DNA of 64,000 nt, taken from NCBI RefSeq assembly GCF_004799325.1, contig NZ_SSMD01000010.1, positions 1 through 64,000 of the forward strand, in the 5' to 3' direction. Each line of letters starts with the position of its first letter. Position 1 is the first letter of the stretch. Of this stretch, positions 12,487 to 43,816 are shown in pieces. The notes below the pieces were generated by a model. It saw only the letters and a program-made list of their open reading frames with translations. It made no database searches and was not told the DNA's origin. The translations under genes were made by a program, and so were the position numbers. The stretch comes from Thalassobius vesicularis. GTDB taxonomy: Bacteria; Pseudomonadota; Alphaproteobacteria; Rhodobacterales; Rhodobacteraceae.

Positions 12487-12597
12487 TCAGAACAGGTCGG
12501 GCTCGTGGCCGCGGCCACCTTCGTCCTGCGAGGGCGCGTACATGTTGATTTCCATGCCGCAGTTCACGTCTTTGATCTTGGGTGCAGTCCAGGCCAT
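12487..12597 (-). CDS. pqqA: PqqA, PQQ precursor peptide
   Basis: A 36-residue peptide, MAWTAPKIKDVNCGMEINMY followed by APSQDEGGRGHEPDLF. Glu16 and Tyr20 in the EINMY motif are the two residues fused to make PQQ. It has a strong ribosome-binding site (GGAGGAAA) just upstream on the minus strand. It is longer than the classic 23-24 aa PqqA, with a C-terminal tail as in several Rhodobacterales. It is the first gene of the pqq operon, next to a copy of the TTTGGTCGTAAGAC motif. Confidence 0.95.
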   Translation of the reverse strand: MAWTAPKIKDVNCGMEINMYAPSQDEGGRGHEPDLF

Positions 12598-12742
12598 TTG
12601 GTTTCCTCCACATACTGGATTTCTGTGAGGTCAGCCTACGCCGGGGGGGCATGGGCCGAAATGCTCCTTTGGTCGTAAGACGGGGCGGGTTAAGACCAAT
12701 GTCGCATAGTCGGGACCCCGGATTTGGCACAGCTTTCGGCCC
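12598..12742. promoter_or_regulatory. Divergent pqqA / nosR-like promoter with an inverted repeat
   Basis: The gap holds CCTTTGGTCGTAAGAC (12666-12681) and a reverse copy TTAAGACCAA (12690-12699). These form TTGGTCnTAA...TTAnGACCAA with arms at 12669-12678 and 12690-12699. This matches the palindrome repeated in the other promoters of the PQQ/xox region (GGTCGTACGACC with CTTTGG flank). It is placed to control both the pqq operon and the divergent gene at 12743. The repeat is seen; binding by the LuxR-type regulator encoded at 29452 is inferred. Confidence 0.6.
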
Positions 12743-16671: not shown

Positions 16672-19041
<2,370 letters not shown>

Positions 19042-19066: not shown

Positions 19067-19549
19067 TTATTCAGCCGCGATGGCGCCCACGTCCTGACCG
19101 GACGCCGCCATGATCGCCTTGACGATGTTGTGGTACCCGGTGCAGCGGCAGATGTTGCCCTCCAGGTAATGCCGGATCTCGGCTTCGGTCGGCTTGGGGT
19201 TTTCCTTCAGCAGCGCGGTCGCCGACATCACCATGCCCGGCGTGCAGAACCCGCACTGAAGCCCGTGGTGATCCTGGAACGCCTGCTGGATGGTGTTCAG
19301 CGTGCCGTCCGGGGCGGCCTGCCCCTCGATGGTGGAAACCTGCGCACCGTCCGCTTCGGCGGCCAGCATGGTGCAGGATTTCACGGCCTGGCCGTTCACA
19401 TGCACGACGCAGGCGCCGCACTGGCTGGTGTCACAGCCGACATGGGTGCCGGTCAATCCCAGCGTGTCGCGCAGGAAATTGACCAGAAGCGTGCGCCCCT
19501 CGGCCTCGCCCGAACGGGTCTTCCCGTTCACGGTCATGGTAATCTTCAT
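19067..19549 (-). CDS. coxS: [2Fe-2S] small subunit of form II CO-dehydrogenase-like enzyme
   Basis: 160-aa iron-sulfur subunit. The plant-type cluster ligands are Cys39, Cys44, Cys47 and Cys59 ([10 protein letters not shown] ... SC). The second cluster uses Cys99, Cys102, Cys134 and Cys136 (CGFCTPGM and NICRCTGY). It carries electrons from the molybdenum centre of CoxL to the FAD in CoxM. It is 25 nt upstream of coxL, with coxG 30 nt further upstream. Confidence 0.94.
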
Positions 19550-19579: not shown

Positions 19580-20125
19580 TCAGCGCGAGAAGAGGCGTTT
19601 CAGCAAGCCTTTCTTCGGCGCATCGTCGGTTTTATTTGCGTCCGGCTCCTCAACCGGGGCTTCTTCGGACGCCGACACATCCGCCTCGGCCTCGACAGCG
19701 GCCTGGAACCGGGCGAAGAAATCGTCGGCCATTTTCTTGGCGAAGCTGTCGATGATCCGGCTGCCCAGCTGGGCCAGTTTGCCGCCCACCTTGGCGTCTA
19801 CCTCATAGGTCAGAGTAGTGCCCGCGCCCGAGTCGGCAAGCTGAACCTTGGCCTCGCCCTTGGCGAAACCGGCAGCACCGCCCTTGCCCTCGCCCGACAA
19901 GGTCAGGCTTTGGCCTTCGACGATGTCGGACAGGCTGACCGTGCCCTTGAACGTGGCCTTCACCGGGCCGACCTTTTGCACGACCGTCGCCTCGAACCCA
20001 TCCTCGGCCGAGCCCGCCATCTCTTGGCAGCCGGGAACGCAGTCCTTCAGCACGTCCGCCGACAGCAGGGCCGCCCAGACGGCAGCGCGCGGTGCGGCGA
20101 TTTCCCGAGTGTCCTTCAGTTCCAT
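19580..20125 (-). CDS. coxG: CoxG-like SRPBCC-domain protein
   Basis: 181 aa. Residues 1-150 form a CoxG/SRPBCC domain: MELKDTREIAAPRAAVWAAL, LKDCVPGCQEM, then the GEGKGGAAGFAKGEAKV and SRIIDSFAKKMADDFFARF stretches typical of CO dehydrogenase subunit G. An acidic linker and a short basic tail (KKGLLKRLFSR) follow; such a tail may bind the membrane, as proposed for CoxG in recruiting CODH. First gene of the cox run. A TAAGACCAAAGG motif copy lies about 60 nt upstream. Confidence 0.87.
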   Translation of the reverse strand: MELKDTREIAAPRAAVWAALLSADVLKDCVPGCQEMAGSAEDGFEATVVQKVGPVKATFKGTVSLSDIVEGQSLTLSGEGKGGAAGFAKGEAKVQLADSGAGTTLTYEVDAKVGGKLAQLGSRIIDSFAKKMADDFFARFQAAVEAEADVSASEEAPVEEPDANKTDDAPKKGLLKRLFSR

Positions 20126-20198
20126 TGCTGTACTCCTGTTGGGCCTGCCAAAATTAGGCAGGAAATTGCAGAACGGCGCTATAAGACCAAAGGCGTAG
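20126..20198. promoter_or_regulatory. Candidate regulatory site before coxG
   Basis: TAAGACCAAAGGCGTAGTC (20182-20200) is, on the minus strand, GACTACGCCTTTGGTCTTA. This carries the CTTTGGTC half-site shared with the pqqA, 21897, 26716, 27264 and xoxF promoter gaps. It lies between the xoxJ stop and the coxG start, suitably placed to drive the cox run. Seen in sequence; function inferred. Confidence 0.45.
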
Positions 20199-21104
20199 TC
20201 AGCGCAGTTCCGGGGGGGTGAAGCTCAGGCCGTAGCTGGCGAAAATCGCTTCCAGACGGCCGTCCTGAATGGCGGCTGCAATGGCGTCGTCCACGGCATA
20301 AGACAGCGCCTTATAGGAGAAATGCGTGGCCACGCCGACCGTCCATTTGCCCTTGGCAAAGCCGGGCAGCGGCGGGGTGTGCAGGGCCATCGCGTCGGTC
20401 AGGCCGAATTCCAGCTGGGCGCGGGTGCCCATTGCTGCCTTCGTCTCGCCCCGGCCCATCGCGGCCATCGCCTGCTGCATGTTGGCATAGCGGTTCACGT
20501 TGCCCGCCAGCGCGCCGCCCGGAAACGAGGACAGGTAGAAATCCGAGATCGAGTCATTCTCGACCGCCACCTTGTCGAAGCGGAAATAGGCCGGGACGGG
20601 CTTTTCATCCGGCTCGGGATAGGCGTCCTTGCGATAGGCGATCGCGATTTCCTCGACATGGTAGGTGCCGGTAAAGGTGACCTGCTCGATCCGGCAGGCA
20701 AAATCGCTGTCATAGGGCACGTGCAGCATCACGTTGGCGACCGCCCCGCTGACCACCGGCCCCTTCCAGATCCAGTTGCGCAGGTCGGCGTCCAGCGTCT
20801 CGCCCGCGCCAACCAGGGTAAAACGCGCCTCGACGCCCAGATCGGCCGCGATCAGCCGGGCAATGTCGATATCGACCCCGCGCGGCTTGCCGGCCTCCTC
20901 CCAGGACCAGGGGGCGAAATCCTCGTAGGCGGCAAAGGTGATGTAGCCGCGCTCTTGGATGGCATCCAGATCCGCGCCGACGATATCGCGGCTGGCGTTC
21001 TGGGGTTTGGGTTGGGGCACATAGCCTTCGCATCGGGCCAGAGCGGGCTCAGCCAGGAGGGAGAAGCTCAGAACAAGTCCGAGGGAAAGCGATGCTTTGA
21101 CCAT
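20199..21104 (-). CDS. xoxJ: XoxJ/MoxJ-like periplasmic binding protein associated with quinoprotein dehydrogenase
   Basis: 301-aa solute-binding-type protein (SBP_bac_3 fold) with a Sec signal (MVKASLSLGLVLSFSLLAEP). I use the ATG at 21104, which has AGGA nine bases upstream; a TTG at 21113 would add three residues. The sequence RCEGYVPQPKPQN ... ITFAAYEDFAPWSWEEAG ... ADLRNWIWKGPVVSGAVANV matches MoxJ/XoxJ proteins. These bind methanol dehydrogenase rather than a small ligand and are thought to help activate it. It lies 19 nt after the cytochrome gene and forms a two-gene unit with it. The partner xoxF is 6.4 kb away, separated from it by the PQQ-linked ABC system, Sel1 and cytochrome genes. 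Confidence 0.88.
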   Translation of the reverse strand: MVKASLSLGLVLSFSLLAEPALARCEGYVPQPKPQNASRDIVGADLDAIQERGYITFAAYEDFAPWSWEEAGKPRGVDIDIARLIAADLGVEARFTLVGAGETLDADLRNWIWKGPVVSGAVANVMLHVPYDSDFACRIEQVTFTGTYHVEEIAIAYRKDAYPEPDEKPVPAYFRFDKVAVENDSISDFYLSSFPGGALAGNVNRYANMQQAMAAMGRGETKAAMGTRAQLEFGLTDAMALHTPPLPGFAKGKWTVGVATHFSYKALSYAVDDAIAAAIQDGRLEAIFASYGLSFTPPELR

Positions 21105-21123
21105 GTGCCCCAATCCTTTCCGC

Positions 21124-21801
21124 TCAGTGCGCCGCGGAAAGTCCGATCGTCAGCGCCTCGGCGGCGCCCTGATAATTCGGCGTGTCGCCGGAAATCAGAT
21201 GTGCCGCGCGATACGCCACGCTGTCAGCCAGAGGCGCGCCCGAGGCGGTCTCGATCTTGTCTGCGATGCCCTGCAACTCGGTGACCAGCGCGTCGCGGTC
21301 GCCCTCGCCCCCGGTGGCCATCGCGGCCAGCTGATCGCGGATTTCACCCAGACGGGCCGAGTAATCGTCCAGCTCGCCGTCATCGGGGCGGGTCTCGATA
21401 TAGGTGCGGATGGCCCAGGCGGCTTTCTGGCCCAGCAACTCGCCAAAGGCCGGCATCTTGGTGATCCCGTTCTGGGTATAGCCGGTCTGGAACCGCTCGA
21501 CGAACCACATGTCGCCGTCCTCGTTGGCCTCCAGATAGCGCAGGTCGGGGGCCAGACCGCCCGACACCGCACCCAGCCCGTGGCAACGCGCGCAGTTCTG
21601 GTTATAGCCCGAGCTGCCGATATCCACAGCCGCCTGCCAGACTTCGGGGCCCTGGCCGCGATAGGGGTTTTCCTCCAGCCAGTCCTCGCCCACTTCGGGC
21701 AGGGCATCGGTGTCGACAGGCTGCGGCGCGACATCACCATGGGCCAGCGCCATCGACGCGGCGGTCAGCAATCCAAGGGCGGTCAAAGCGGTGCGTTTCA
21801 T
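21124..21801 (-). CDS. Periplasmic cytochrome c of the PedF / CycB (c550/c553i) type
   Basis: 225 aa with a signal peptide (MKRTALTALGLLTAASMALA). One haem-binding motif CARCH (Cys70, Cys73, His74) and a downstream Met in GITKMPAFGE as likely sixth ligand. After the cytochrome fold comes a helical C-terminal extension (about 140-225). It resembles the cytochrome c550 found beside PQQ alcohol dehydrogenases (PedF) and CycB next to xoxF in Paracoccus. It probably takes electrons from XoxF. Upstream of xoxJ in the same unit; divergent from the PQQ-linked ABC operon. Confidence 0.86.
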   Translation of the reverse strand: MKRTALTALGLLTAASMALAHGDVAPQPVDTDALPEVGEDWLEENPYRGQGPEVWQAAVDIGSSGYNQNCARCHGLGAVSGGLAPDLRYLEANEDGDMWFVERFQTGYTQNGITKMPAFGELLGQKAAWAIRTYIETRPDDGELDDYSARLGEIRDQLAAMATGGEGDRDALVTELQGIADKIETASGAPLADSVAYRAAHLISGDTPNYQGAAEALTIGLSAAH

Positions 21802-21962
21802 TCTCGGGTCCTCCCGTTGAGTGGCTTTTACCGGGTCTTAAACCGCCTTGATCCGACAGGGATATTCGACCTTCGTTCAACTTCGGCCGGATTCCCGACT
21901 TTGGTCTAATGGCAGCGGGGTGCACCCTGCCCGTACCTTCGTCGCACTACGGGAGGACACTC
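21802..21962. promoter_or_regulatory. Divergent promoter with GACTTTGGTCTAAT motif
   Basis: 161 nt between the cytochrome gene and the PQQ-linked ABC operon. GACTTTGGTCTAAT (21897-21910) matches the half-site of the locus-wide palindrome. A looser GGGTCTTAAACC lies near 21834. GGGAGGAC (about 21950) is the ribosome-binding site for the gene at 21963. Confidence 0.5.
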
Positions 21963-23126
21963 ATGCGACGACTGGTTCTGACAGCTGGCGTTCTGGCGCT
22001 TTCGGCATTTTCGGCCGCCGCCGATGTCGCCGTGCGCGTGACCTACCTGCGCCACGAACAGATCCGCCCCCCCGTGCTGTCGAACCTGGACGAGGTGCCG
22101 GCCGACCTTGGCGTCGCAGGGGCCGAGCTGGCGATCAACGACAGCCGCACCACCGGAAAATTCCTGGGCCATACCTACGATCTTACGCTGGTGTCCGTCC
22201 CGCCCGAGGGCGATTTGATCGCCGCCGCCCGCACCGCGCTGGGCGAGACGCGCCTTGTGGTGCTGGACATGCCGGGGGCCGAGATGCTGGCCGTCGCCGA
22301 CCTGCCCGAGGCCGCCGGCGCGCTGCTGTTCAACGCCACACAGGCCGATCCGGCCCTGCGCGAACAGGACTGCCGCGCCAACCTGCTGCACACCCTGCCC
22401 GACCAGGACATGCGCGCCGATGCGCTGATGCAATTCGTGGCCGCCCGCCGCTGGACCGACCTTGCGCTGATCGAAGGCACCCATCCGGGCGATCAGGCCT
22501 GGGCGCAGGCGCTGCGCGACAGTGCCCGCAAGTTCGGCCTGAAGATCGGTGCCGAGAAAACCTGGGCCTTTGACGCCGACATGCGCCGCAATGCCTCGCA
22601 AGAGGTGCCGCTGTTCACGCAATCCTTGGGCAAATACGACCTGCTGCTGGTCGCGGACGAGCTGGGCGATTTCGCCCGCTACATCCCGTTCAACACGTGG
22701 CTCGCCCGGCCTGTTGCGGGCTCGGTCTCGCTGGTGCCGGTCGCCTGGAACCGCGTGATGGAGCAATGGGGCGCCGTGCAGATGCAGGACCGGTTCCGCG
22801 CCCTCGCCGCCCGCGACATGCTCCCCGAGGATTACGCCTCCTGGGCCGCCATCCGCGCCCTGTCCGAGGCCGCCACCCGCACCTCCAGCGCCGATCCCGC
22901 CACTCTGCGCGCCTATATCCTGTCCGACGCGTTCGAACTGGCCGCCTTCAAGGGCCGCCCGCTGTCCTTCCGCCCGTGGAACGGCCAGTTGCGCCAGCCC
23001 ATCGCGCTGGTCAGCGGCGAGGCCGTCGTCGCGCAAGCGCCCCTCGAAGGCTTCCTGCACCAGCGCAACGAGCTGGACACGCTGGGCCGCGACCTACCCG
23101 AAACCCGATGCGAGGCTTTCCAATGA
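21963..23126 (+). CDS. PQQ-associated ABC transporter periplasmic binding-like protein
   Basis: 387 aa from the ATG at 21963 (MRRLVLTAGVLALSAFSAAA), which follows a GGGAGGAC site; a longer frame from 21909 is unlikely. It has a Sec signal and a type I periplasmic-binding-protein fold without the usual amino-acid-binding signature. It matches the family of binding-like proteins found only in PQQ-dependent alcohol-dehydrogenase loci. It heads a tight operon with a beta-propeller, a small periplasmic protein, an ATPase and an ABC-2 permease. ABC-2 permeases normally export, so a binding protein here is odd. Ligand unknown. Confidence 0.83.
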   Translation: MRRLVLTAGVLALSAFSAAADVAVRVTYLRHEQIRPPVLSNLDEVPADLGVAGAELAINDSRTTGKFLGHTYDLTLVSVPPEGDLIAAARTALGETRLVVLDMPGAEMLAVADLPEAAGALLFNATQADPALREQDCRANLLHTLPDQDMRADALMQFVAARRWTDLALIEGTHPGDQAWAQALRDSARKFGLKIGAEKTWAFDADMRRNASQEVPLFTQSLGKYDLLLVADELGDFARYIPFNTWLARPVAGSVSLVPVAWNRVMEQWGAVQMQDRFRALAARDMLPEDYASWAAIRALSEAATRTSSADPATLRAYILSDAFELAAFKGRPLSFRPWNGQLRQPIALVSGEAVVAQAPLEGFLHQRNELDTLGRDLPETRCEAFQ

Positions 23127-24073
23127 AACTGCTGCTGCCCCTGTTGCTGCTGCCCTGTGCGGCAATGGCCGAGGAAATCTGGGTCACCAACGAAAAGGAC
23201 AACACGATCAGCGTGATCGACGTCGCCACGCTGTCCGTGACCCGCACGATCGAGACCGGAGAGCGCCCGCGCGGCATCACCTTCAGCCACGATTACAGCC
23301 GCGTCTATATCTGCGCCTCGGACAGCGACACCGTGCAGGTGATGGACCCGGAAACCGGGCAGATCCTGCACAACCTGCCCTCGGGCGAAGACCCCGAGCA
23401 ATTCGTGCTGCACCCCGATGACCGGCACCTCTACATAGCCAACGAAAACGACGCGATCACCACCGTCGTGGATACCGAAACCCGCACCGTGATCGCCCAG
23501 ATCGACGTCGGGATAGAACCCGAGGGCATGGCCGTTTCCCCCGATGGCCAGATGGTCATCACCACCTCGGAAACCACCAACATGGCGCATTGGATCGATA
23601 CCGAGACGCGCCAGATCATCGCCAACACGCTGGTCGACGCCCGCCCGCGCCACGCCGAATTCGCCGCCCACGGGGCCGAGCTGTGGGTCAGCGCCGAAAT
23701 CGGCGGCACGGTCAGCGTTTTTGACACTGGCTCCAAGGCCGAAAAGGCCAAGATCGGCTTTGCCATCAAGGGCGTGCACCCCGACCGCATCCAGCCCGTG
23801 GGGTTCGAGTTCACCGATGACGAACAGACCGCCTTTGTCGCGCTCGGCCCGTCGAACCACGTCGCCGTGGTCAACGCCCAGACCTATGAGGTCGAGGAGT
23901 ACATCCTTGTCGGCCGCCGCGTCTGGCACATGGCCTTCAACAGCGACAAAAGCCTGCTGTTCACCACCAACGGCGTTTCCGGCGATGTCACCGTCATCGA
24001 CGTGGCCAGCCGCAAACCCCTGAAAACCATCAAGGTCGGCCGCTTCCCCTGGGGCGCGGCCCTGCGCCCCTGA
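23123..24073 (+). CDS. PQQ-associated YVTN-type beta-propeller periplasmic protein
   Basis: 316 aa from the ATG at 23123, overlapping the preceding stop by 4 nt. Signal peptide MKLLLPLLLLPCAAMA. The mature protein is made of YVTN-like blades, for example IWVTNEKDNTISVIDVATLS and LYIANENDAITTVVDTETR, about seven repeats. It belongs to the beta-propeller family confined to PQQ-dependent catabolism loci. A scaffold or binding role in the periplasm is likely; no catalytic residues are evident. Confidence 0.85.
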   Translation: MKLLLPLLLLPCAAMAEEIWVTNEKDNTISVIDVATLSVTRTIETGERPRGITFSHDYSRVYICASDSDTVQVMDPETGQILHNLPSGEDPEQFVLHPDDRHLYIANENDAITTVVDTETRTVIAQIDVGIEPEGMAVSPDGQMVITTSETTNMAHWIDTETRQIIANTLVDARPRHAEFAAHGAELWVSAEIGGTVSVFDTGSKAEKAKIGFAIKGVHPDRIQPVGFEFTDDEQTAFVALGPSNHVAVVNAQTYEVEEYILVGRRVWHMAFNSDKSLLFTTNGVSGDVTVIDVASRKPLKTIKVGRFPWGAALRP

Positions 24074-24084: not shown

Positions 24085-24513
24085 ATGAAACCCCTGCTGA
24101 TCGCCCTTCTGCTGGCCTCCCCCGCATTGGCCGACGATGACACGCCGAAATTCGGCATGGCGGGCCTCTTGTCGTCAAAGAATAAGCAAGACCTGCCCCC
24201 CATCACCCTGTCCGCCGGCGAACCCCTCGCCGCCGCCCCGTGGGAGCTGACATCCGGCACCTATTACGAGTTTGAAATCCAGTCCGACGGCAGCCAGGAA
24301 CTGGCCCTGATCGGCCCCGAATTCTTCCGCGCGATCTGGATCGACGAGATCGTCGTGCAGGGGCTGGAGATCCGCCCGCTGGGGCTGGATTCACTGGAAT
24401 TTGACGAGGCGGGCGAGATGGAGATCGGGTTCATCGCTATCAAACCCGGCAGCTACACCCTGCGCGTTCCCGGCGCGGGCGATCTGCAAACCCTGCAGAT
24501 CACCATCCGATGA
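24085..24513 (+). CDS. Small periplasmic protein of the PQQ-linked ABC operon, function unknown
   Basis: 142 aa with signal peptide MKPLLIALLLASPALA. The mature protein is acidic and predicted mostly beta strand (YYEFEIQSDGSQELALIGPE, SYTLRVPGAGDLQTLQITIR), reminiscent of a cupredoxin-like sandwich. It has no histidine or cysteine and so cannot bind copper in the usual way. It follows an AAAGGAGG site 12 nt after the beta-propeller and overlaps the ATPase gene by 4 nt, so it is surely part of the operon. I do not recognise a function. Confidence 0.75.
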   Translation: MKPLLIALLLASPALADDDTPKFGMAGLLSSKNKQDLPPITLSAGEPLAAAPWELTSGTYYEFEIQSDGSQELALIGPEFFRAIWIDEIVVQGLEIRPLGLDSLEFDEAGEMEIGFIAIKPGSYTLRVPGAGDLQTLQITIR

Positions 24514-25229
24514 CCGGCCTTTCCGTCCACGACCTGCGGTTCAACTACGGCCCGAAACAGGCGCTGGACGGGGTCTCCTTCGACATCGCTCCGGGCGCGT
24601 TCTGCGCCCTGCTTGGCCCCAATGGCGCGGGCAAATCCACGCTGATGGCGCTGCTGACGCGCCTGTTCACCACGCGCCACGGCACGATCCGCGTCGCCGG
24701 TCACGATCTGGCCCGCGATCCCCGCCTTGCGCTGGCCCGGATCGGAGTCGTCTTCCAGCAAACCACGCTGGATCTGGACCTGTCGGTCTATCGCAACCTG
24801 TCGTATTTCGCCGCCCTTCACGGCATTTCCGGCCGCGAGGCGCATACCCGCATCATGGAGGCGCTGGACCGCCTCGGCATGGCCGAACGCGCTCATGAAA
24901 CCGCCCGCGATCTGAACGGCGGCCACCGGCGCCGGGCCGAGATTGCCCGCTGCCTGATCCACCGCCCCTCGGTCCTGTTGCTGGACGAACCCACCGTCGG
25001 GCTGGACGCCGCCGCCCGCCGCACCATCACCGACCACGTCCACGATCTGGCCCGCGATACCGGCCTGACCGTCCTCTGGGCCACGCATCTGAGTGACGAG
25101 GTCCGCGACACCGACCGCCTGATCGTTCTGCATCAGGGCCGCGTTCTGGCCGACGGCCTTGCCGGCCCCCTGCGCGGCCCGCACCCCTTGGCCGACTACT
25201 TCCTGTCGCTGACAGGGGCCCCCGCATGA
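24510..25229 (+). CDS. PQQ-associated ABC transporter ATP-binding protein
   Basis: 239 aa. Walker A GPNGAGKST, Walker B VLLLDEPTVGLD and switch HLSDEVRDTD are intact. The signature region reads LNGGHRRRAEIARCL, an LNGG variant of LSGG. The sequence fits the ATPase family tied to PQQ-dependent alcohol dehydrogenases. It drives the ABC-2 permease encoded next (4-nt overlap). Confidence 0.88.
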   Translation: MTGLSVHDLRFNYGPKQALDGVSFDIAPGAFCALLGPNGAGKSTLMALLTRLFTTRHGTIRVAGHDLARDPRLALARIGVVFQQTTLDLDLSVYRNLSYFAALHGISGREAHTRIMEALDRLGMAERAHETARDLNGGHRRRAEIARCLIHRPSVLLLDEPTVGLDAAARRTITDHVHDLARDTGLTVLWATHLSDEVRDTDRLIVLHQGRVLADGLAGPLRGPHPLADYFLSLTGAPA

Positions 25230-26014
25230 GCTGGCTCATCGCCCTACACGCCATCGTCCTGCGCGAGGCGCTGCGCTTTACCCGGCAACGCGGCCGCTTC
25301 ATCGCCGCCCTCGTCCGCCCCTTGGTCTGGCTGATCGTCTTCGCCGCCGGGTTCCGCGCCGCCCTGGGCCTGTCGATCACCCCGCCGTACGAGACCTACA
25401 TCACCTACGACATCTACATCGTCCCCGGCCTGTGCGGCATGATCGTGCTGTTCAACGGGATGCAAAGCTCCCTCTCGCTGGTCTATGACCGCGAAATGGG
25501 CTCGATGCGCCTGCTGCTGACCAGTCCCCTGCCGCGCTGGTGGCTGCTGGTGTGCCGCCTGATCGCCTCGACCGTGATTTCGGCGCTGCAAGTTTACACC
25601 TTCCTCGGCATCGCCGCCGTTTACGGCATCACCTTCCCGCCGCTGGGCTATGTCGCCGTCCTGCCCGCCCTGCTGATCGCCGGGCTGATGCTGGGCGCGC
25701 TGGGGCTGGCACTGTCTTCGACCATCTCGCAGCTGGAAAACTTCGCCGGTGTCATGAACTTCGTCATCTTCCCGATGTTCTTCCTGTCCTCGGCCCTCTA
25801 CCCACTGTGGAAAATGGCCGAAAGCTCGGAGCTGCTGCACGACATCTGCGCCGTGAACCCCTTCACCCACGCGGTCGAGATGATCCGCTTCGCCCTCTAC
25901 GCCCAGGCCAACCTGCCCGCCCTCGGCTGGACCCTGCTGGCCGGGGTGATCCTGCTCGCGCTGGCACTCTGGGGCTACGATCCGGCGCGGGGCTTGCTGC
26001 GCCGCAAGGGCTAG
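25226..26014 (+). CDS. PQQ-associated ABC-2 type permease
   Basis: 262 aa with about six membrane helices and the ABC-2 core GMQSSLSLVYDREMGSMRLLLTSPLPRWWLL (in part: YDREMGSMRLLLTSPLPRWW). Such permeases export lipids, polysaccharides or drugs. The family is the one linked to PQQ alcohol-oxidation loci (PedC-like). It ends the operon; a perfect GGTCGTACGACC palindrome follows 7 nt after the stop. Confidence 0.87.
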   Translation: MSWLIALHAIVLREALRFTRQRGRFIAALVRPLVWLIVFAAGFRAALGLSITPPYETYITYDIYIVPGLCGMIVLFNGMQSSLSLVYDREMGSMRLLLTSPLPRWWLLVCRLIASTVISALQVYTFLGIAAVYGITFPPLGYVAVLPALLIAGLMLGALGLALSSTISQLENFAGVMNFVIFPMFFLSSALYPLWKMAESSELLHDICAVNPFTHAVEMIRFALYAQANLPALGWTLLAGVILLALALWGYDPARGLLRRKG

Positions 26015-26020
26015 CACCAA

Positions 26021-26032
26021 GGTCGTACGACC
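26021..26032. promoter_or_regulatory. Perfect GGTCGTACGACC palindrome before the Sel1 gene
   Basis: A 12-bp perfect palindrome, with CCAA on its left, centred about 64 nt before the ATG at 26090. An identical 12-mer occurs at 27421-27432 before xoxF. Likely operator; regulator inferred. Confidence 0.6.
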
Positions 26033-26089: not shown

Positions 26090-26626
26090 ATGAAACACGT
26101 CATGATCGCCGCCCTGTTGCTGGCCACCCCCGCCCTTGCCACCGATGACGACCCGGGCGGAGAGCTGAACCCGCTCGAATCCGGCTTTGGCCGCGTCATG
26201 CGCAATGTCGAGGAGGGCAAGCTCGACATGACCACCTGCGCCACCGGCTATTACATCACCAAATCCGGCCGGCACGAGCTGGCCCGCAAACTGTTCGAGG
26301 CCTGCGCCAATGCCGGCTATTCCGCCGCGATGACGTGGATGAGCCAGCTCGACAACAACGGGCTGGGGGGCGAGTACAACCCCGATGCCTCGGCCGACTG
26401 GGACCGCCGCGCCGCTGAAACCGGCGATCCGGTGGGCAAGTTCAACTACGGGCTGGACCTGATGCGCGGTCACGGCGTTGCCCAGAACGAGGCACTTGGC
26501 CGCCAGCTGGTCGACCAGGCCGCCGCCGAGGGGCTGGACATCGCCCAACGCCTGCAAGGTGCCGACTATGATCTGGACGAGGTCACTCCGGACGCCGACA
26601 ACTGGAAATATGCACCGATGTTCTGA
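26090..26626 (+). CDS. Periplasmic Sel1-repeat protein
   Basis: 178 aa with signal peptide (MKHVMIAALLLATPALA) and two to three Sel1-like repeats (HELARKLFEACANAGYSAAM, AETGDPVGKFNYGLDLMRGH). Sel1 repeats are alpha-solenoids used for protein contacts. An AGGAGG site precedes the ATG at 26090. It has its own palindromic operator and stands between the ABC operon and the cytochrome/xoxF genes. It probably helps assemble or protect a periplasmic component of the alcohol-oxidation system; inference only. Confidence 0.8.
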   Translation: MKHVMIAALLLATPALATDDDPGGELNPLESGFGRVMRNVEEGKLDMTTCATGYYITKSGRHELARKLFEACANAGYSAAMTWMSQLDNNGLGGEYNPDASADWDRRAAETGDPVGKFNYGLDLMRGHGVAQNEALGRQLVDQAAAEGLDIAQRLQGADYDLDEVTPDADNWKYAPMF

Positions 26627-26683: not shown

Positions 26684-26714
26684 CGCTGCCAATCCGAACG
26701 ATCCGCCCCGTCTA

Positions 26715-26740
26715 CGACTTTGGTCGTACGACTAAAGTCG
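26715..26740. promoter_or_regulatory. 26-bp near-perfect operator palindrome before cytochrome c gene
   Basis: The two halves, CGACTTTGGTCGT and ACGACTAAAGTCG, are reverse complements except at one position. This is the longest and best version of the motif shared by the PQQ/xox promoters. It is centred about 105 nt before the cytochrome ATG at 26832. An AT-rich stretch (26748-26780) between may hold the promoter. Confidence 0.65.
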
Positions 26741-26831
26741 CATCTAAGTTACTGCTTTTATTGATCTTTATCAAGAAATACACATCTTGAAAAGGGGTAA
26801 TGTCGCGTCATCCCAAACCCCGGAGGACCTG

Positions 26832-27242
26832 ATGAAACACACCCTTATCGCCCTGAGCCTGGCTCTGGCCCCGCTGCCCGCCCTTGCCAATGACGCCACC
26901 TTCGAGGCCGTCAAGGTCGAGGCCGGAGAGAAGCTCTTTGCCGCTGAATGCCGCCGTTGCCACGCCACCGACGCCAGCCACGACAGCTATGGCCCGCCGC
27001 TGGAAAACGTGATCGACCGCGCCGCTGGCAGCTACCCGGATTACCCGTACTCGACCGCGCTCAGCGCCTCGGGGATCGTCTGGACCGAGGCCGCCCTGCG
27101 CGCATGGATGGAGGATAACCGCGGCTTCATGCCCGGCACCAAGATGCGCCATGTCGGCATCACCGACACCACCGTGCAGAACTTCATCCTGGCGTACCTG
27201 CGCTCGGTCACCACGCGGGATGGAAAGGCCGTTCAGGACTGA
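26832..27242 (+). CDS. Small periplasmic class I cytochrome c
   Basis: 136 aa from the ATG at 26832 (MKHTLIALSLALAPLPALAN), which has CGGAGGA at a normal distance; a start at 26787 would put sequence before the signal peptide. Haem motif CRRCH (Cys40, Cys43, His44) and Met candidates in GFMPGTKM. It is small for XoxG/cytochrome cL (about 170-190). It sits directly before xoxF, with operator palindromes on both sides. Likely electron acceptor or relay for XoxF; the PedF-like cytochrome at 21124 is a second candidate. Confidence 0.85.
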   Translation: MKHTLIALSLALAPLPALANDATFEAVKVEAGEKLFAAECRRCHATDASHDSYGPPLENVIDRAAGSYPDYPYSTALSASGIVWTEAALRAWMEDNRGFMPGTKMRHVGITDTTVQNFILAYLRSVTTRDGKAVQD

Positions 27243-27539
27243 TCCGGCCCGCCGGCCGGGGGGCGACTTTGGGCGTAGACGCAGCGCCTGTCACCCCCCG
27301 TGCCAACTTTGCGTATCACATTAACTATGCATCGCTACCAACTGTTTTAATTTATACTTTCACGAAAAACATCGACACCCCAACCACCCATTCATCTGAT
27401 CGCCTCCGACCGATTTCAAGGGTCGTACGACCTTTGTGCAATTTCGTCCAAACCGCCGCCTCCAAATAATGCCACCAGCCGCAGCACCGTCCGTGCGGAA
27501 GGCACTCTGGCTAGGATAACACCCCAAGGGAGGAAACCG
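27243..27539. promoter_or_regulatory. xoxF promoter region with two motif copies
   Basis: 297 nt without a gene. It holds CGACTTTGGGCGTAGACG (27264-27281), an imperfect half-palindrome. It also holds a perfect GGTCGTACGACC (27421-27432) flanked by CAAG and TTTG, about 110 nt before the xoxF ATG. Between them is an AT-rich block (about 27305-27375) suited to a promoter or long leader. GGGAGGAAAC (27529-27538) is the xoxF ribosome-binding site. An in-frame stretch from 27269 shows no domain and I do not call it a gene. Confidence 0.6.
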
Positions 27540-29303
27540 ATGAACCGGTTCATTATGGCGGTCGCCGCAAGCTTTCTGGCAGCAACCACTGCCGTCGCTG
27601 GCGTCACCGAAGACGATCTGAACAACGACCAGACCATCACCAGTCAGGTGGTGACGAACGGGATGGGCCGTGCCCTGCAGCGCTACAGCCCGCTGGACAT
27701 CATCAACAAGCAAAACGTGAAGAACCTGGTCCCGACCTGGGCCTTCAGCCTGGGCGGCGAAAAGCAGCGCGGCCAGGAAACCCAGCCGCTGGTCTATGAT
27801 GGCGTGATGTATGTCACCGGCTCGTATTCGCGCCTCTACGCGATCGACGTGAACTCGGGCAAAGAGCTGTGGCAGTACGACGCCCGCCTGCCCGAAGGCA
27901 TCCTGCCCTGCTGTGACGTGATCAACCGTGGTGCGGCGATCTATGGCGACAACATCTATTTCGGCACGCTGGACGCGCGCATCGTCGCGCTGAACCTGAA
28001 GACCGGCGATGTGGTCTGGAAGGAAAAGATCGCCGACTACAAGGCGGGCTATTCCTACACCGCTGCCCCGCTGATCGTGAACGGGCTGGTGGTCACCGGC
28101 AACTCGGGCGGCGAGTTTGGCATCGTCGGCGAAGTGCAGGCACGCAACGCCGAAACCGGCGAACTGGTCTGGACCCGTCCCGTGATCGAAGGCCACATGG
28201 GCACGCTGAACGGCAAGGAATCCACCATGACCGGCACGCTGAACGCGACCTGGCCGGGCGACATGTGGAAAACCGGCGGTGGTGCGACCTGGCTGGGCGG
28301 CTCGTATGACGCCGATACCGACACGCTGGTCTTTGGCGCCGGCAACCCTGCGCCGTGGAACAGCCACCTGCGCAACGCCGGCACCCCGACCGAAGGCAAC
28401 GCCGGCGACAACCTCTATGCCGCCAGCCGTCTGGGCATCGACCCGCATACCGGCGAGATCAAGTGGCACTTCCAGACCACCCCGCGCGAAGGCTGGGACT
28501 ATGACGGCGTGAACGAGGTCGTGGCCTATGTCGACCGCGCCGGCAACAAGCGTTTCGCCACCGCCGACCGCAACGGCTTTTTCTACGTTCTGAACCGCGA
28601 AGACGGCAAATTCGTCTCGGCCAAGCCCTTCGTCAAGGATATCTCCTGGGCTTCGGGCATCGACGACACCGGCCGCCCGATCTTTGTCGAGGAAAACCGC
28701 CCCGGTAACCCGGCAGGTTCGGCCGATGGCAAGAAAGGCGAGGTGATCTTTGCTTCGCCCTCCTTCCTGGGTGGCAAGAACTGGATGCCGATGGCGTTCA
28801 GCCAGAAGACCGGCAACTTCTACGTGCCCTCGAACGAATGGGGCATGGACATCTGGAACGAGCCGATCACCTACAAGAAGGGCGCCGCCTATCTGGGCGC
28901 GGGCTTCACCATCAAGCCGAACTACGAGGACCACATCGGCAGCCTGAAGGCAATCGACCCCGACACCGGCGAGTGGAAGTGGGAATTCAAGAACGAAGCC
29001 CCCCTCTGGGGCGGCGTGATGACCACCGCGGGCGGTCTGGTGTTCTTTGGTACCCCCGAGGGTGAATTCATCGCCCTGGACGACGAAACCGGCGAGAAAC
29101 TGTGGTCGTTCCAGACCGGCTCGGGCATCGTGGGCCAGCCCATCACCTGGGAAAAGGACGGCGAGCAGTACGTCTCGGTCGTGTCCGGCTGGGGTGGCGC
29201 GGTTCCGCTGTGGGGCGGCGAAGTGGCCAAAAAGGTCAACTACCTGAACCAGGGCGGCACCGTCTGGACCTTCAAGGTTCCGCGCCAGCTGGCCCAGAAC
29301 TAA
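27540..29303 (+). CDS. xoxF: XoxF-type lanthanide-dependent PQQ methanol/alcohol dehydrogenase
   Basis: 587-aa periplasmic quinoprotein with signal peptide ([20 protein letters not shown]) and an eight-bladed propeller. Catalytic Asp320 lies in GWDYDGVNE, and Asp322, two residues on, is the extra Asp that marks lanthanide-binding XoxF (MxaF has Ala there). Other metal ligands by family comparison are Glu192 (GGEFG) and Asn269 (GAGNP). The vicinal disulfide Cys124-Cys125 (LPCCD) near PQQ is present. It oxidises methanol or other short alcohols and passes electrons to cytochrome c. No mxaI/mxaF is in the window. It is preceded by operator palindromes and followed by a clear terminator. Confidence 0.95.
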
Positions 29304-29362: not shown

Positions 29363-29377
29363 TATACGACCTTTAGG
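29363..29377. promoter_or_regulatory. Motif half-site before the LuxR-type regulator gene
   Basis: TATACGACCTTTAGG resembles the right half of GGTCGTACGACCTTTG before xoxF (27421). It lies about 75 nt before the regulator start at 29452, so the regulator could control its own gene. The match is partial. Confidence 0.4.
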
Positions 29378-29451
29378 CAAGTAGATGTGCGCCGGTGTGT
29401 TTGTTAGCCTTTTTCCAACGAAACGACACCCGTATCGCAAGGCATCGGATC

Positions 29452-30138
29452 ATGAACAGCAGAGTGTATTCAGAGGGAATGAAGCTGGGCTCGGCCCTGA
29501 TCGTGGACGATCACCCGCTGTTCTGTGACGCCCTGTCGATGACGCTGCGCTCCTCGGCGGGGATCACCGACATCCACACCGCCGCCACGCTGGAGCAGGC
29601 GCTGACCTTCGTCCAGCAGGGCGGCAAGCCCGACGTCGTGGTGCTGGACCTGAACCTGCCCGACGTGAACGGGCTGGACGGCCTGGTGCGGATGCGCAAC
29701 GTGACGCAAGCGCCGATCGTCGTGGTCTCGTCGATGGCTGACAACCGCGTCATCACCGGCGTCATCCATGCAGGCGCCAACGGCTTCGTGCCCAAGCATT
29801 CCCAGCGAGAGGTCTTCCAGGCCGCCTTTGACGTGCTGCGCAACGGCGGCATCTTCATCCCGGCGGGCTACATGCTGCTGGACCGCGAAAGCGCGCCCAG
29901 CCAGGCCGACACGCTGGAACGCCTCGCCTCGCTGACCAACCAGCAGGCGCGCATCCTGCAACTGATCTGCGAAGGCAAGCTGAACAAACAGATCGCCTAT
30001 GACCTGTCGATTGCCGAAACCACCGTTAAGGCGCATGTGACCGCGATCATGCGCAAGCTGGGCGTGCAAAGCCGCACACAGGCCGTTCTGATCGCGAAAG
30101 AGGCGAGCTTCACCAACGTATTGCAAGACCGCGCCTGA
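29452..30138 (+). CDS. LuxR/NarL-family response regulator (FlhR/ErbR-like)
   Basis: 228 aa from the ATG at 29452 (MNSRVYSEGMKLG), with AAGG nine bases upstream; starts at 29395 or 29479 are possible. Receiver domain with Asp66 (VVVLDLNLPDVNG) and a C-terminal LuxR helix-turn-helix (LTNQQARILQLICEGKLNKQ ... TTVKAHVTAIMRKLGV). It stands directly after xoxF and before a FIST protein and a hybrid kinase. In Paracoccus FlhR and in Pseudomonas ErbR/AgmR, relatives control C1/ethanol oxidation genes. It is the leading candidate to bind the palindromes in this locus. The equivalence to FlhR/ErbR is by context and family, not proof. Confidence 0.87.
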   Translation: MNSRVYSEGMKLGSALIVDDHPLFCDALSMTLRSSAGITDIHTAATLEQALTFVQQGGKPDVVVLDLNLPDVNGLDGLVRMRNVTQAPIVVVSSMADNRVITGVIHAGANGFVPKHSQREVFQAAFDVLRNGGIFIPAGYMLLDRESAPSQADTLERLASLTNQQARILQLICEGKLNKQIAYDLSIAETTVKAHVTAIMRKLGVQSRTQAVLIAKEASFTNVLQDRA

Positions 30139-30180
30139 GGCGCATACCTTCATCGTCAGGGAACTGTGGGAGGAGACCTG

Positions 30181-31350
30181 ATGGATATGACCCGCCACCT
30201 TACGGGGGCGTTTCCTGGCGCGTCCGATATCGTGCGCACGGCGTTCGCCGATGTGCACTCGGATCATGCCCTGGCCGACCTTGCCACTGCCCTGAACCCG
30301 GCCGATCTGGATCTCGTGATCCTGTTCGTCTCGCCGCAGGCCGATATCCACACGCTGGCCGTTCGCGCCTTCTCGGCCTTTGCGCCGGCCCGCGTTGTCG
30401 GCTGCACCACGGCCGGAGAGCTGTGCTCCGAAGGCTACGCCGAGGGGCGCATCGTCGCCATCGGCCTGCCGCGTGGGCATTTCTGCACCCGCACCCTGCT
30501 GATCGAGGATCTGGACGCCTACGACCCGCAGGACCTGATTGGCGATCTGATCCGCAACCGCAACGACACGGCCCGCGAAACCCCCGACTGGCACTCGGAA
30601 TGCGCCATGCTGCTGGTCGACGGGCTGACCATGCACGAAGACGCCCTGACCGCCGACCTGTCGATGGGCGTCGGCCCTGTGCCGCTGTTCGGCGGCTCGG
30701 CCGGGGATGGCGACCGCTTTCAGGAAACCTGGGTCATTCAGGACGGCATCGCCCACCGCAACGCCGCTGTCGTCGTGCAGATGCGCACCGATTGCCGGAT
30801 CGAGGTGTTCAACACCGACCACCTGCGCCCGACCGAGGCGCGCATGGTCGTCACCGGCGCCGACCCCGCCCGCCGCATCGTGCATGAAATCAACGCCGAG
30901 CCCGCCGCGCTGGAATACGCGCGCCTGCTGGGCAAGGATCCCGGCCAGCTGACCACCTTCACCTTCGCCGCCCACCCGGTCGTCGTGCGCATCGGCGGCC
31001 AGCACCACGTCCGCTCGATCCAGCGGATGGAGCCGAACGGCGATCTGGTGTTCTTCTCGGCCATCGACGAAGGCGTGGTGCTGACGCTGGCCGAATCCAC
31101 CGACATGGTCGCGCATCTGGAAAACCAGCTGGGCCGCTTGAACCGCCACGGCAAGCCCGACGCCGTGATCGCCTTCGACTGCATCTTCCGCCGGATGGAG
31201 GCCGAGCAGCAGCAACTGGCCGGCCAGCTGTCCAACCTCCTGTCGCAGCACAACGTCGTGGGCCTGTCCACCTATGGCGAGCAGATCAACGCCCGCCACG
31301 TCAACCAAACCCTGACGGGCGTCGCCATCTATCCGCCGGAAGGGGTCTGA
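30181..31350 (+). CDS. FIST-domain sensory protein (NosP-like)
   Basis: 389 aa from the ATG at 30181 (MDMTRHLTGAFPG), which has GGAGGAG five bases upstream; a GTG at 30166 lies within that site. N-terminal FIST_N (about 40-220: VVGCTTAGELCSEGYAEG, LFGGSAGDG) and C-terminal FIST_C (about 230-370: LVFFSAIDEGVVLTLAES, CIFRRMEAEQQ, VVGLSTYGEQ). FIST proteins of the NosP type bind haem, sense NO and modulate a partner histidine kinase. Here the next gene, one base after its stop, is a PAS hybrid kinase, the same pairing as NosP/NahK beside the Pseudomonas ethanol-oxidation genes. Haem binding here is not shown. Confidence 0.87.
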   Translation: MDMTRHLTGAFPGASDIVRTAFADVHSDHALADLATALNPADLDLVILFVSPQADIHTLAVRAFSAFAPARVVGCTTAGELCSEGYAEGRIVAIGLPRGHFCTRTLLIEDLDAYDPQDLIGDLIRNRNDTARETPDWHSECAMLLVDGLTMHEDALTADLSMGVGPVPLFGGSAGDGDRFQETWVIQDGIAHRNAAVVVQMRTDCRIEVFNTDHLRPTEARMVVTGADPARRIVHEINAEPAALEYARLLGKDPGQLTTFTFAAHPVVVRIGGQHHVRSIQRMEPNGDLVFFSAIDEGVVLTLAESTDMVAHLENQLGRLNRHGKPDAVIAFDCIFRRMEAEQQQLAGQLSNLLSQHNVVGLSTYGEQINARHVNQTLTGVAIYPPEGV

Positions 31351-31351
31351 G

Positions 31352-33586
31352 ATGCTCAGCGGCCTGATCAACACCTCGGACAGCCTGGAACGCCAGAACG
31401 AAAAGCTGCGCAAGGTGGTCACCACTCTGATGCGCCGGGTGGAACAGGACACCGACAGTTCCGGCGCCGCCTACGCCCAGTTCCAGCGCGCCGTGATGCT
31501 AGAGGACGAGGTCCGCGCCCGCACCCGCGATCTGGAACGCGCGCTGGACCTGCTCAACGACTCCAACGCCAAGCTGGCCATCGCCAACCAGGAAACCGAG
31601 GCCGCCCGCGCCGACCTCGCCAACGCCATCGAGACCGTGCAAGAGGGGTTCGCCCTGTTCAACGCCGACGAGGTGATGGTCATGTGCAATAGCCGCTTCG
31701 GCATGCATATGGGCGACATCCGCGAACAGCTCAAACCCGGAATGCGTTTTCGCGAATACGTGCGCATCGTGTCCCGCTCGCGGTTTCTCTCGCTGCCCCC
31801 GTCGGAAACCCCCGAGCAATGGGAATCCCGCCGGATGGAGCGGCACAAGGACAGCTCGGTCATCTTCAACGTCCGCCTGACCGGCAAGCGCTGGATTCAG
31901 GTCAGCGAACACCGCACGCCCTCGGGCGGTACCGTGATCCTGCAAACCGACGTCACCGACATCGTGCGTCTGGAACGGCAGGAACGCGAGCGCCTGATCG
32001 ACGACCAGGCCCGCCTGATCCGCGCCACGCTGGAGCACCTTAAACAGGGCGTGTGCATCTTCGACAGCTTCGGCCGTCTGGTCGGCTGGAACCACCGCGT
32101 GCCCGAACTGCTGTCGGTGCAGGTGAAACGCTTCCACCTTGGCAGCACCTTCGCGGCCATGAGCACCCATATCCGCACCGCCTACACCCTGTCCGACGGC
32201 ATCACGCTGGACCAGATCATCGCATGGGCCGACGGCCGCATCGACCGCGCCCCCCTGTCGTTCGAGATGCAGCGCGGGATGGACATGGTGCTGGCCGTGT
32301 TCATGCAGGAAATGCCCGACAAGGGCTTTGTGATCTCCTTCACCGACATCACCGCCGAACGCATGGCCATCCGCGCCATGACCGAGACCAAGGAATCGCT
32401 GGAACACCGCGTCTTTGAACGCACGCTGGAGCTGGAGGACGCCCTGTCCGAGGCCGAGCGCGCCAACGCCTCCAAGTCCCGCTTCGTCGCCGCCGCCTCG
32501 CATGACCTGCTGCAGCCGTTGTCGGCCGCGAAACTCTACCTCGCCTCGCTGGAAAACGAGTGCCAAGCCGAGCTGGAGCCGCGCCGGATGCTGCAAAAGG
32601 CGTCCTCGGCGCTGCAATCGGTGGAAAACATCCTCGGCGCGCTGCTGGACATCTCGAAACTCGATTCCGGGCTGGCCAACACCCATATCTCGACCGTCGA
32701 TCTGGGCACCCTGCTGCGTCAGCTCGAGGTCGAAACCCGCCCACAGGCCGCCGCCAAGGGGCTGGATTTCCGCGTCGTGCACACCCATGCGCGCGTGTCC
32801 ACGGATGCCACCTATCTGCAACGCATCCTGCAAAACCTGATCTCGAACGCGGTGCGCTATACCGCGCAGGGCAAGGTTCTGGTCGGCCTGCGCCACCTGC
32901 CCGGCAAGGTCCGGGTCGAGGTCTGGGACACCGGCCCCGGCATCCCCGAGGACGAACAGGACACCATCTTTGGCGAGTTCCAGCGCCTCAACGCCACCGC
33001 CAGCGCCGCCGACGGCATGGGGCTGGGTCTGGCCATCGTCGACCGCGCCTGCGCCCTGCTGCAACACCCGCTGCACCTGCGTTCCGAAGTGGGGCGCGGC
33101 ACCGTGTTTTCCGTGGAACTGCCCCGCGCCAAGACGCAACCGATCCCGGTGCACAGCCCGGTGTTCCGCTCGTCCCAGGCGCTGAACGATTTCACCAACC
33201 TGGCCGTGCTGCTGGTCGAAAACGACGACGAGCTGCGCAACGCCCTGACCATCACGATGGAACAATGGGGCGTCGACGTGCTGACCTGCAAATCCTGCCA
33301 AGAGGCGCTGGACCTGCTGGCCGAGATCGAGATGACCCCCGACATCATCGTCGCCGATTACCAACTGGATGACGGGCTGGACGGGTTGGACGCCATCCGC
33401 CGCCTGCGCGGCGTCTGCGGCAACATCCCGGCCTGCATCATCTCGGCCAACCGCTCGACCGAGCTGGTGCAGGATTGCGCCCGCGCCAGCCTGCCGTTGA
33501 TCTACAAACCGATCGAGCCCGCGCATCTGCGCGACTTCCTGCGCCGCCCGCGCTCGATCCCGATTGACGCGCCGCGCCGGGCCTAG
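31352..33586 (+). CDS. PAS hybrid histidine kinase with receiver (FlhS / ErcS'-NahK-like)
   Basis: 744 aa. An N-terminal coiled coil (about 10-95) is followed by two PAS_7-type domains (AIETVQEGFALFNADEVMVM and LEHLKQGVCIFDSFGRLVGW). Next come an H-box AAASHDLLQPLSAAKLYLAS with His384, an ATPase (NLISNAVRYTAQGKV, GMGLGLAIVDRA) and a receiver with Asp669 (IIVADYQLDDGLDG). No membrane helix, so cytosolic. This is the layout of the HptB-feeding hybrid kinases such as NahK/ErcS'. It directly follows the FIST gene, which probably supplies the signal. The stop overlaps the convergent RND gene by 4 nt. Confidence 0.9.
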   Translation: MLSGLINTSDSLERQNEKLRKVVTTLMRRVEQDTDSSGAAYAQFQRAVMLEDEVRARTRDLERALDLLNDSNAKLAIANQETEAARADLANAIETVQEGFALFNADEVMVMCNSRFGMHMGDIREQLKPGMRFREYVRIVSRSRFLSLPPSETPEQWESRRMERHKDSSVIFNVRLTGKRWIQVSEHRTPSGGTVILQTDVTDIVRLERQERERLIDDQARLIRATLEHLKQGVCIFDSFGRLVGWNHRVPELLSVQVKRFHLGSTFAAMSTHIRTAYTLSDGITLDQIIAWADGRIDRAPLSFEMQRGMDMVLAVFMQEMPDKGFVISFTDITAERMAIRAMTETKESLEHRVFERTLELEDALSEAERANASKSRFVAAASHDLLQPLSAAKLYLASLENECQAELEPRRMLQKASSALQSVENILGALLDISKLDSGLANTHISTVDLGTLLRQLEVETRPQAAAKGLDFRVVHTHARVSTDATYLQRILQNLISNAVRYTAQGKVLVGLRHLPGKVRVEVWDTGPGIPEDEQDTIFGEFQRLNATASAADGMGLGLAIVDRACALLQHPLHLRSEVGRGTVFSVELPRAKTQPIPVHSPVFRSSQALNDFTNLAVLLVENDDELRNALTITMEQWGVDVLTCKSCQEALDLLAEIEMTPDIIVADYQLDDGLDGLDAIRRLRGVCGNIPACIISANRSTELVQDCARASLPLIYKPIEPAHLRDFLRRPRSIPIDAPRRA

Positions 33587-37831: not shown

Positions 37832-37896
37832 GGGCGACTCCGGCAAATGATCGCCGCCGTAGCGACGGATGTCTTGATCTGGATTAAAGAAACCAG

Positions 37897-37913
37897 TTAG
37901 TTTTGTAAAGTAA
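37897..37913. promoter_or_regulatory. Candidate TetR operator between RND operon and its regulator
   Basis: TTAGTTTTGTAAAGTAA is a 17-bp imperfect palindrome (TTA[G/C]TTT-tgt-AAAGTAA) in the 125-nt divergent gap. The location and AT-rich contrast fit an operator for the TetR protein at 37957. Confidence 0.45.
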
Positions 37914-37956
37914 GCAAGTAAGTCAAACCCGCCCCACGCTTCGGAAAGCCTAACGC

Positions 37957-43812: not shown

Positions 43813-43816
43813 ACCC

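Follow-up and report, generated by a model that had tools for sequence, protein, structure and literature searches.

Within a 64,000-nucleotide stretch of Thalassobius vesicularis DNA (contig NZ_SSMD01000010.1, positions 1 to 64,000; hereafter the window), three consecutive genes encode a LuxR/NarL-type response regulator, a FIST protein and a PAS-containing hybrid kinase. This trio is conserved, is linked to PedH, molybdenum (Mo)-hydroxylase and one-carbon (C1) genes, and stands in an island whose promoters share a palindromic box. It is probably an AgmR/ErbR-like switch of a pyrroloquinoline quinone (PQQ) alcohol-oxidation regulon, with the kinase gated by the FIST protein. In the mechanism that we propose, the response regulator would bind a box close to TACGACC-WW-GGTCGTA and, once bound, would activate pqq synthesis, a NosR-like/ApbE pair, the Mo-hydroxylase, pedF, the pedA1A2BC transporter, a cytochrome c gene and PedH; the hybrid kinase would phosphorylate the regulator, directly or via Hpt, and the FIST protein would be the kinase's detachable sensor. 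The regulon is well supported by comparison; we infer the binding of the box by the regulator, the gating of the kinase by FIST and an input tied to alcohol or aldehyde rather than to nitric oxide (NO) alone.

The three genes lie on one strand, with gaps of 27 bases between regulator and FIST and 1 base between FIST and kinase. An earlier note on this DNA had placed a LuxR regulator, a FIST protein and a PAS hybrid kinase at 29452-33586, and Pfam confirms all three. The phospho-sites, placed by eye, are as usual (kinase H384 and D669, regulator D58), and no membrane span was found in the kinase, whose top 19-residue hydrophobicity mean of 1.29 is too low. The regulator combines a receiver and a LuxR domain with a gene position within the ped island, as expected of the AgmR/ErbR type, and scores 162 bits against the NCBIfam ErdR model (cut-off 390). 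The FIST protein, the sole FIST match of its genome, scores 389.6 bits (E 1.4e-116) against the NCBIfam NosP model NF041558, below the curated cut-off of 450; the kinase scores 383.3 bits against NF041832 (near_NosP_CTERM, NahK/ErcS near-NosP kinases), below its cut-off of 400. Among PDB sequences no relative of the FIST protein was found (best E 0.29), and no viral relative was confirmed. The comparison with NosP that the earlier note had proposed holds at the level of domains, FIST and FIST_C being present, and falls short at the level of model score. A structure model built from seven sequences has a mean predicted local distance difference test (pLDDT) score of 67.6 with a largely poor C-terminal half, and Foldseek with this low-confidence model returned FBXO22 and cyanuric-acid-hydrolase-like folds at template modelling (TM) scores of about 0.3-0.5, too weak for pocket geometry.

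The enzyme encoded beside the trio is, by its sequence, a PedH/ExaF-type lanthanide ethanol dehydrogenase. It reaches 817.6 bits against chain 6zcv, a quinoprotein ethanol dehydrogenase that we take to be PedH of P. putida, 669 against 1flg, presumably a calcium enzyme, and 316-320 against XoxF-named chains. The second Asp of its WDYDG motif is likewise present in 6zcv (WDFDG), whereas 1flg has WDFSG; this extra Asp has a lanthanide role. XoxF, beside which the trio had been placed, was rejected as the identity of 27540-29303 on these scores (818 bits to 6zcv), so that a lanthanide dehydrogenase of the ethanol type takes the place of the methanol-type XoxF, and the wider claim that the trio adjoins PQQ alcohol-oxidation genes is borne out by PedH and the ped cluster genes. 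With the ped genes, a Mo-hydroxylase, pqqA/B/C/E and the NosR-like and ApbE genes all upstream, the trio closes a 24-kb alcohol-oxidation island. The dehydrogenase is also 34% identical to an S. meliloti PQQ dehydrogenase situated behind flhA-fghA-cytochrome genes. Trios are not tied to lanthanide enzymes, because those of P. pantotrophus and Paracoccus sp. TOH follow an enzyme with WDFS.

Co-occurrence was assessed in 295 genomes of the same family (294 genera), taken to be Rhodobacteraceae from its named relatives, with tests that ignore phylogeny and multiple testing; FIST orthologues were taken at 46% identity or more and PedH-type enzymes at E up to 1e-200. FIST orthologues occur in 102 of the 295 genomes and PedH-type enzymes in 58, and all 58 PedH genomes have the orthologue, versus 44 of the 237 others (hypergeometric 8e-34). 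The two are also neighbours: FIST lies 0.85-2.8 kb downstream of PedH on the same strand in 41 of the 58, the window included. The conserved synteny that the earlier note had thought worth seeking is present, and its concern that FIST might not be conserved beside the kinase is laid to rest: among the 102 orthologue loci the kinase is directly downstream of FIST in 99, the regulator directly upstream in 94, and all three stand together in 94. One locus (L128) has neither kinase nor regulator within the examined stretch, and some others stop at a contig edge. The scored neighbours were PedH at 40 loci and the Mo large subunit at 28, with both within the flank at 0; since homologues of the Mo large subunit are common (223/295 genomes), adjacency rather than presence is the signal. 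Ruegeria sp. SCSIO 43209 has a gene order near-identical to that of the window, plus one hypothetical gene before the dehydrogenase. At loci L089, L090 and L096-L099, outside the ped and Mo islands, a binding protein that by eye is of an oligopeptide ATP-binding cassette (ABC) type stands about 2.9 kb upstream of FIST.

Expectation-maximization (EM) on PedH, CoxG-like and regulator promoters returned one palindrome near TACGACC-WW-GGTCGTA; plain inverted-repeat counting gave a weak signal. Because coding controls also reach high likelihoods, the EM likelihood is no proof, and we relied on promoter-like controls and a cross-promoter test, in which the matrix came from PedH promoters without the window and the 99% threshold from 604 control segments, mostly coding. 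Gene calling at the loci was greedy and let in antisense shadows, in the promoter-like controls as well. The matrix matched 32/34 PedH starts (the training set), 12/21 CoxG-like starts divergent from the regulator (the same gaps as 12/21 divergent regulators), 6/10 separate CoxG-like starts, and regulator starts at 9/40 loci beside PedH and 7/33 others. At operon-internal starts there were 0 matches (PedA2 15 starts, PedB 30, PedC 31, MoS 30, MoL 29, MoM 27, PqqC 9, PqqE 9), and other open reading frame starts matched at 5/258, 1/154 and 1/80, near the set 1%; the sets for PedA1 (0/1), Sel1-like (1/1) and cytochrome (1/1) are too small for use. Seven sites in the 64-kb window exceed the threshold, all beside pqqA/NosR-like, CoxG-like, pedF/pedA1, Sel1-like, cytochrome c (two) and PedH genes, and a matrix seeded without the window gave the identical seven; the predicted box thus precedes pqqA, PedH and the ped genes there. 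EM on promoters of the C1 clade led to other palindromes, with few box sites (5 versus 1 shuffled), and loci of other families gave 9 versus 2 shuffled. The box could serve as a predictor of the regulon.

Allowing two mismatches at most, the pattern TACGACCWWNGTNNNA matches the window 17 times, whereas 100 shuffles averaged 3.84 matches and peaked at 9; its exact form occurs 3 times in the 3.79-Mb genome, each time within the window. An exact match is present in 47/80 genomes with the trio (80 of the 102, ordered by identity to the window) versus 15/80 trio-less genomes with a Mo gene (80 of about 120; Fisher 3e-7), a difference that is partly circular because trio loci had served to select the pattern from ten candidates; a backwards control pattern runs the opposite way (29/80 and 41/80). 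In trio genomes, 47 of the 71 distinct matches have PedH, FIST or a Mo gene no more than 25 kb away, with Mo gene positions used for 7 genomes only and 3 of the 47 depending on them alone. Nineteen of the 41 searched genomes with PedH carry an exact match 40-260 bp ahead of that gene. Among the 15 trio-less genomes with matches, 8 had a listed Mo position, and by eye 0/12 matches in these 8 fall within 25 kb of the Mo gene.

Besides that circularity, several results weigh against the proposed regulon. No scored neighbour outside the trio was found at 28 of the 102 orthologue loci. Coding stretches put through EM likewise yielded high-likelihood palindromes (183 and 179, versus 253), and in two promoter subsets, 34 of non-divergent regulators and 10 of separate CoxG-like genes, EM failed to return the box. 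Segments upstream of the hybrid kinase matched the matrix in 24/101 cases, which we read as FIST codons for STYGE and hence as false signal, and the window regulator's own promoter carries only a degenerate box. At one mismatch the genome yields 19 matches versus 24 for the backwards control, no excess, and it is the clustering alone that is unusual, 7 of 18 distinct places falling between positions 12.66 and 27.44 kb in the window; 24 of the 71 distinct matches in trio genomes lie away from PedH, FIST and Mo genes. Finally, a 2026 review of ped names PP_2683, AgmR and YiaY, and not PedS1, as needed for ped activation in P. putida (PMC12997753). The STYGE codons themselves, in the window within the FIST gene at 30166-31350, mimic the box in many loci, just upstream of the kinase gene.

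A FIST-gated-kinase alcohol-oxidation regulon would be a new arrangement of an already known kind of system. The trio resembles the Pseudomonas nosP/nahK/erbR set, as the earlier note had proposed: in the same review, the P. putida PP_2663-PedS1-AgmR genes (P. aeruginosa NosP-NahK/ErcS'-ErbR) likewise combine FIST, hybrid kinase and LuxR regulator beside PedA1A2BC and a PQQ alcohol dehydrogenase, the regulator controls ped and pqq, and AgmR of P. putida switches on the pqq operon as well as the ped core (PMC12997753). The arrangements differ in order and content. At most loci of the same phylum where FIST exceeds the NosP cut-off, the regulator lies beyond the kinase on the opposite strand, whereas the three genes of the window are consecutive on one strand; the island has Mo-hydroxylase and NosR-like/ApbE genes in addition to those of Pseudomonas ped/exa, and an iron alcohol dehydrogenase of the YiaY type was not found in the 64-kb window. 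The NosR-NosP-NosK system of B. pseudomallei also encodes FIST with a kinase without membrane spans, but its regulator output is HD-GYP, in contrast to the LuxR DNA-binding domain here (PMC12570481).

A second, paralogous trio occupies C1 islands, with a FIST protein 34-43% identical to that of the window. Its neighbours are gfa, the genes for glutathione-formaldehyde dehydrogenase (flhA) and S-formylglutathione hydrolase (fghA), and SoxYZ/metallo-β-lactamase (MBL) quinoprotein relay genes; at 17 of the 18 loci examined (of 32 low-identity FIST matches), at least 2 of gfa, flhA, fghA, SoxYZ-like and MBL adjoin it. C1-linked trios also occur in S. meliloti, whose record has no annotated kinase gene, Mameliella and Salipiger, and three named C1-linked FIST proteins are 37-42% identical to that of the window. 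A 2016 review lists afdR-afdT-afdS, rfdR-rfdT-rfdS and flhR-orf2-flhS as formaldehyde-linked two-component systems with a middle gene of unknown role, and describes formaldehyde sensing by AfdRS and RfdRS, which have no conserved cysteines, as unexplained (PMC4776306). In that published order FIST occupies the same position between regulator and kinase as afdT, rfdT and orf2 (PMC4776306), from which we infer that AfdT, RfdT and orf2 are FIST proteins, by gene position rather than from their sequences. A plasmid homologue carries the name GfdT, which PP_2663 bears as well, alongside 'nitric oxide-sensing protein'.

These R. sphaeroides and P. denitrificans systems share with the window trio the middle gene between regulator and kinase and the control of toxic-aldehyde genes (PMC4776306); unlike it, they target formaldehyde genes, and the C1-linked trios found here form a separate FIST clade. 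A tentative reading is that FIST reports an aldehyde, or an aldehyde-altered thiol or redox state, via C80 and C339 or haem, in a trio homologous to AfdRTS/FlhR-orf2-FlhS. The C1 context of the paralogous trios, the middle genes of systems whose formaldehyde sensing is unexplained and whose AfdRS and RfdRS have no conserved cysteines, and the conservation of C80 (99%) and C339 (about 100%) in 148 FIST sequences of all groups argue for it. Both cysteines are, however, equally conserved in the NosP-containing clade, adhI was unaffected in an R. sphaeroides rfdT mutant according to the 2016 review (PMC4776306), a result that also weighs against the proposed regulon, the likeness to AfdT, RfdT and orf2 is one of position, and the literature consulted showed no aldehyde binding by FIST. 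An aldehyde-linked signal fits the gene contexts better than NO or haem does. FIST would then be a specific candidate for the missing sensor of a formaldehyde response, and the comparison joins the NosP/NahK (NO, biofilm) and AfdRTS/FlhR-orf2-FlhS (formaldehyde) literatures, previously separate in the papers searched; no published link between them was found in that search, which worked mostly at listing level and covered few subscription journals.

An NO or haem input is possible from the sequences, and the d1-haem genes and H-NOX of the genome also leave room for NO. In a midpoint-rooted FIST tree, which leaves the sister relations of the three clades unfixed, the C1 clade holds 21 sequences (support 98), the NosP-containing clade 20 (96) and the window's clade 107 (97); within the last, PedH and Mo neighbour labels switch repeatedly (27 and 22 changes). 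Alongside the two cysteines, H378 is conserved in about 100% and H219 in 95% of sequences, and because these four possible haem ligands are kept in the window's and the NosP-containing clade alike, sequence does not decide haem. That FIST is a true NosP, which binds haem, senses NO and tunes the PedH regulon up or down through the kinase, seems to us doubtful. Its match to the NosP model and the kinase's 383 of 400 bits favour it, as do the ligands common to the NosP-containing clade, the d1-haem (nirS-type) genes of its own genome, and the finding in B. pseudomallei that NosP inhibits its kinase and that NO strengthens the inhibition (PMC12570481). nirS alone is weakly positive with FIST (odds 2.05, p 0.03) and PedH (odds 2.53, p 0.015), and C1-type FIST is positive with nirK/nirS together (16/32, p 0.007). 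Yet the protein stays under the model cut-off in a clade separate from the NosP-containing one; nirK and nirS together show no overall link with FIST (32/102 with it, 53/193 without; odds 1.21, p 0.50), and both genes are absent from 39 of 58 PedH genomes; the genome already has an H-NOX protein; and the neighbours found are alcohol, aldehyde and C1 genes, though denitrification genes were not among the queries. These results bear on a question left by the 2026 review, of whether the ped-cluster FIST-kinase pair senses NO instead of, or besides, alcohols (PMC12997753).

A broader idea, which we consider unlikely, is that NosP-type FIST proteins ancestrally report alcohol or aldehyde turnover (aldehyde or thiol state, perhaps via C80/C339 or haem) and would be the missing sensor of AfdRS/FlhRS and ped clusters, with the NO sensing of P. 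aeruginosa-like NosP acquired later or as a side function. It is very improbable that the neighbourhood is accidental, with the trio driving biofilm or motility via Hpt/Rsm and PedH under other control: P. aeruginosa NosP-NahK does work through HptB and RsmA, with swarming suggested as an output in the review (PMC12997753), but the complete co-occurrence and frequent adjacency with PedH, the DNA-binding regulator beside FIST in 94/102 loci and the box common to these genes speak against it.

Table 1 Features of the trio, the island and the predicted boxes in the window; the name CoxG-like is our presumption
Feature	Position	Strand	Basis or remark
LuxR/NarL-type response regulator	29476..30138	+	Receiver and GerE (Pfam), D58
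FIST/FIST_C protein (NosP/GfdT-like)	30166..31350	+	Pfam
PAS_7 (two stretches)-HisKA-HATPase-REC hybrid kinase	31352..33586	+	Pfam
PedH/ExaF-type lanthanide-dependent PQQ alcohol dehydrogenase (by sequence)	27540..29303	+	Bit scores to solved chains, WDYDG Asp
c-type cytochrome	26829..27242	+	Pfam, NCBIfam
Sel1-like protein of ped island	26090..26626	+	sel1 repeat family protein in Ruegeria annotation; itself without Pfam match
PedC, ABC permease	25226..26014	+	TIGR03861 over cut-off
PedB, ABC ATPase	24510..25229	+	Ruegeria homologue annotated ABC transporter ATP-binding protein
PedA2, PQQ-associated beta-propeller	23045..24073	+	TIGR03866 over cut-off
PedA1, ABC binding protein	21909..23126	+	TIGR03863 over cut-off
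PedF cytochrome c-550	21124..21801	-	TIGR04494 over cut-off
Periplasmic binding protein (SBP_bac_3)	20199..21113	-	Pfam
CoxG-like protein adjoining Mo enzyme	19580..20125	-	Conserved beside trios; no NCBIfam match
Mo-hydroxylase 2Fe-2S subunit	19067..19549	-	Translation by eye, homologues
Mo-hydroxylase large subunit (glyceraldehyde dehydrogenase/CO dehydrogenase-like)	16672..19041	-	NCBIfam, under every listed cut-off
Mo-hydroxylase FAD subunit	15873..16658	-	NCBIfam, under every listed cut-off
ApbE family (FAD:protein FMN transferase)	14797..15666	+	Pfam
NosR-like polyferredoxin	12743..14800	+	NosR model, 449 bits of 1000
pqqA precursor peptide	12487..12597	-	Translation, by eye
PqqB	11569..12456	-	TIGR02108 over cut-off
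PqqC	10844..11572	-	TIGR02111 over cut-off
PqqE	9487..10563	-	TIGR02109 over cut-off
Degenerate box	29365..29380	+	Before response regulator; two mismatches, under matrix threshold
Box	27426..27441	+	114 bp before PedH; score 19.9; one of 3 exact pattern matches in genome
Two overlapping boxes	26713..26742	.	Before cytochrome c gene; scores 19.3, 13.6
Box	26012..26027	.	Before Sel1-like gene, overlaps last 3 bases of pedC; score 20.2; exact pattern match
Box	21865..21880	+	Between pedF (-) and pedA1 (+); score 13.7
Box	20182..20197	.	Before CoxG-like/Mo-hydroxylase genes; score 14.7
Box	12691..12706	.	Between pqqA (-) and NosR-like gene (+); score 16.9; weaker neighbour 12662-12677

Two parts of the island have possible functions of their own. 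The NosR-like polyferredoxin and ApbE genes (12743-15666) adjoin pqqA behind the same box and may be the island's electron outlet. The Mo-hydroxylase S-L-M set with the CoxG-like gene (15873-20125) falls between the carbon monoxide (CO)-dehydrogenase and glyceraldehyde-dehydrogenase models, under both cut-offs, and is possibly the island's aldehyde oxidase. Beyond the trio, the kinase gene is followed tail to tail by an AcrB-like resistance-nodulation-division (RND) pump at 33583-36684 and then by an adaptor-like protein at 36701-38092, with a divergent TetR-like gene at 37957-38613; the adaptor-like and TetR-like names come from reading the sequence alone. Further on, the region 39642-45145 encodes an NMT1_3 binding protein and, by eye, a fused tripartite ATP-independent periplasmic (TRAP) permease, a UspA-like protein and an aminotransferase.

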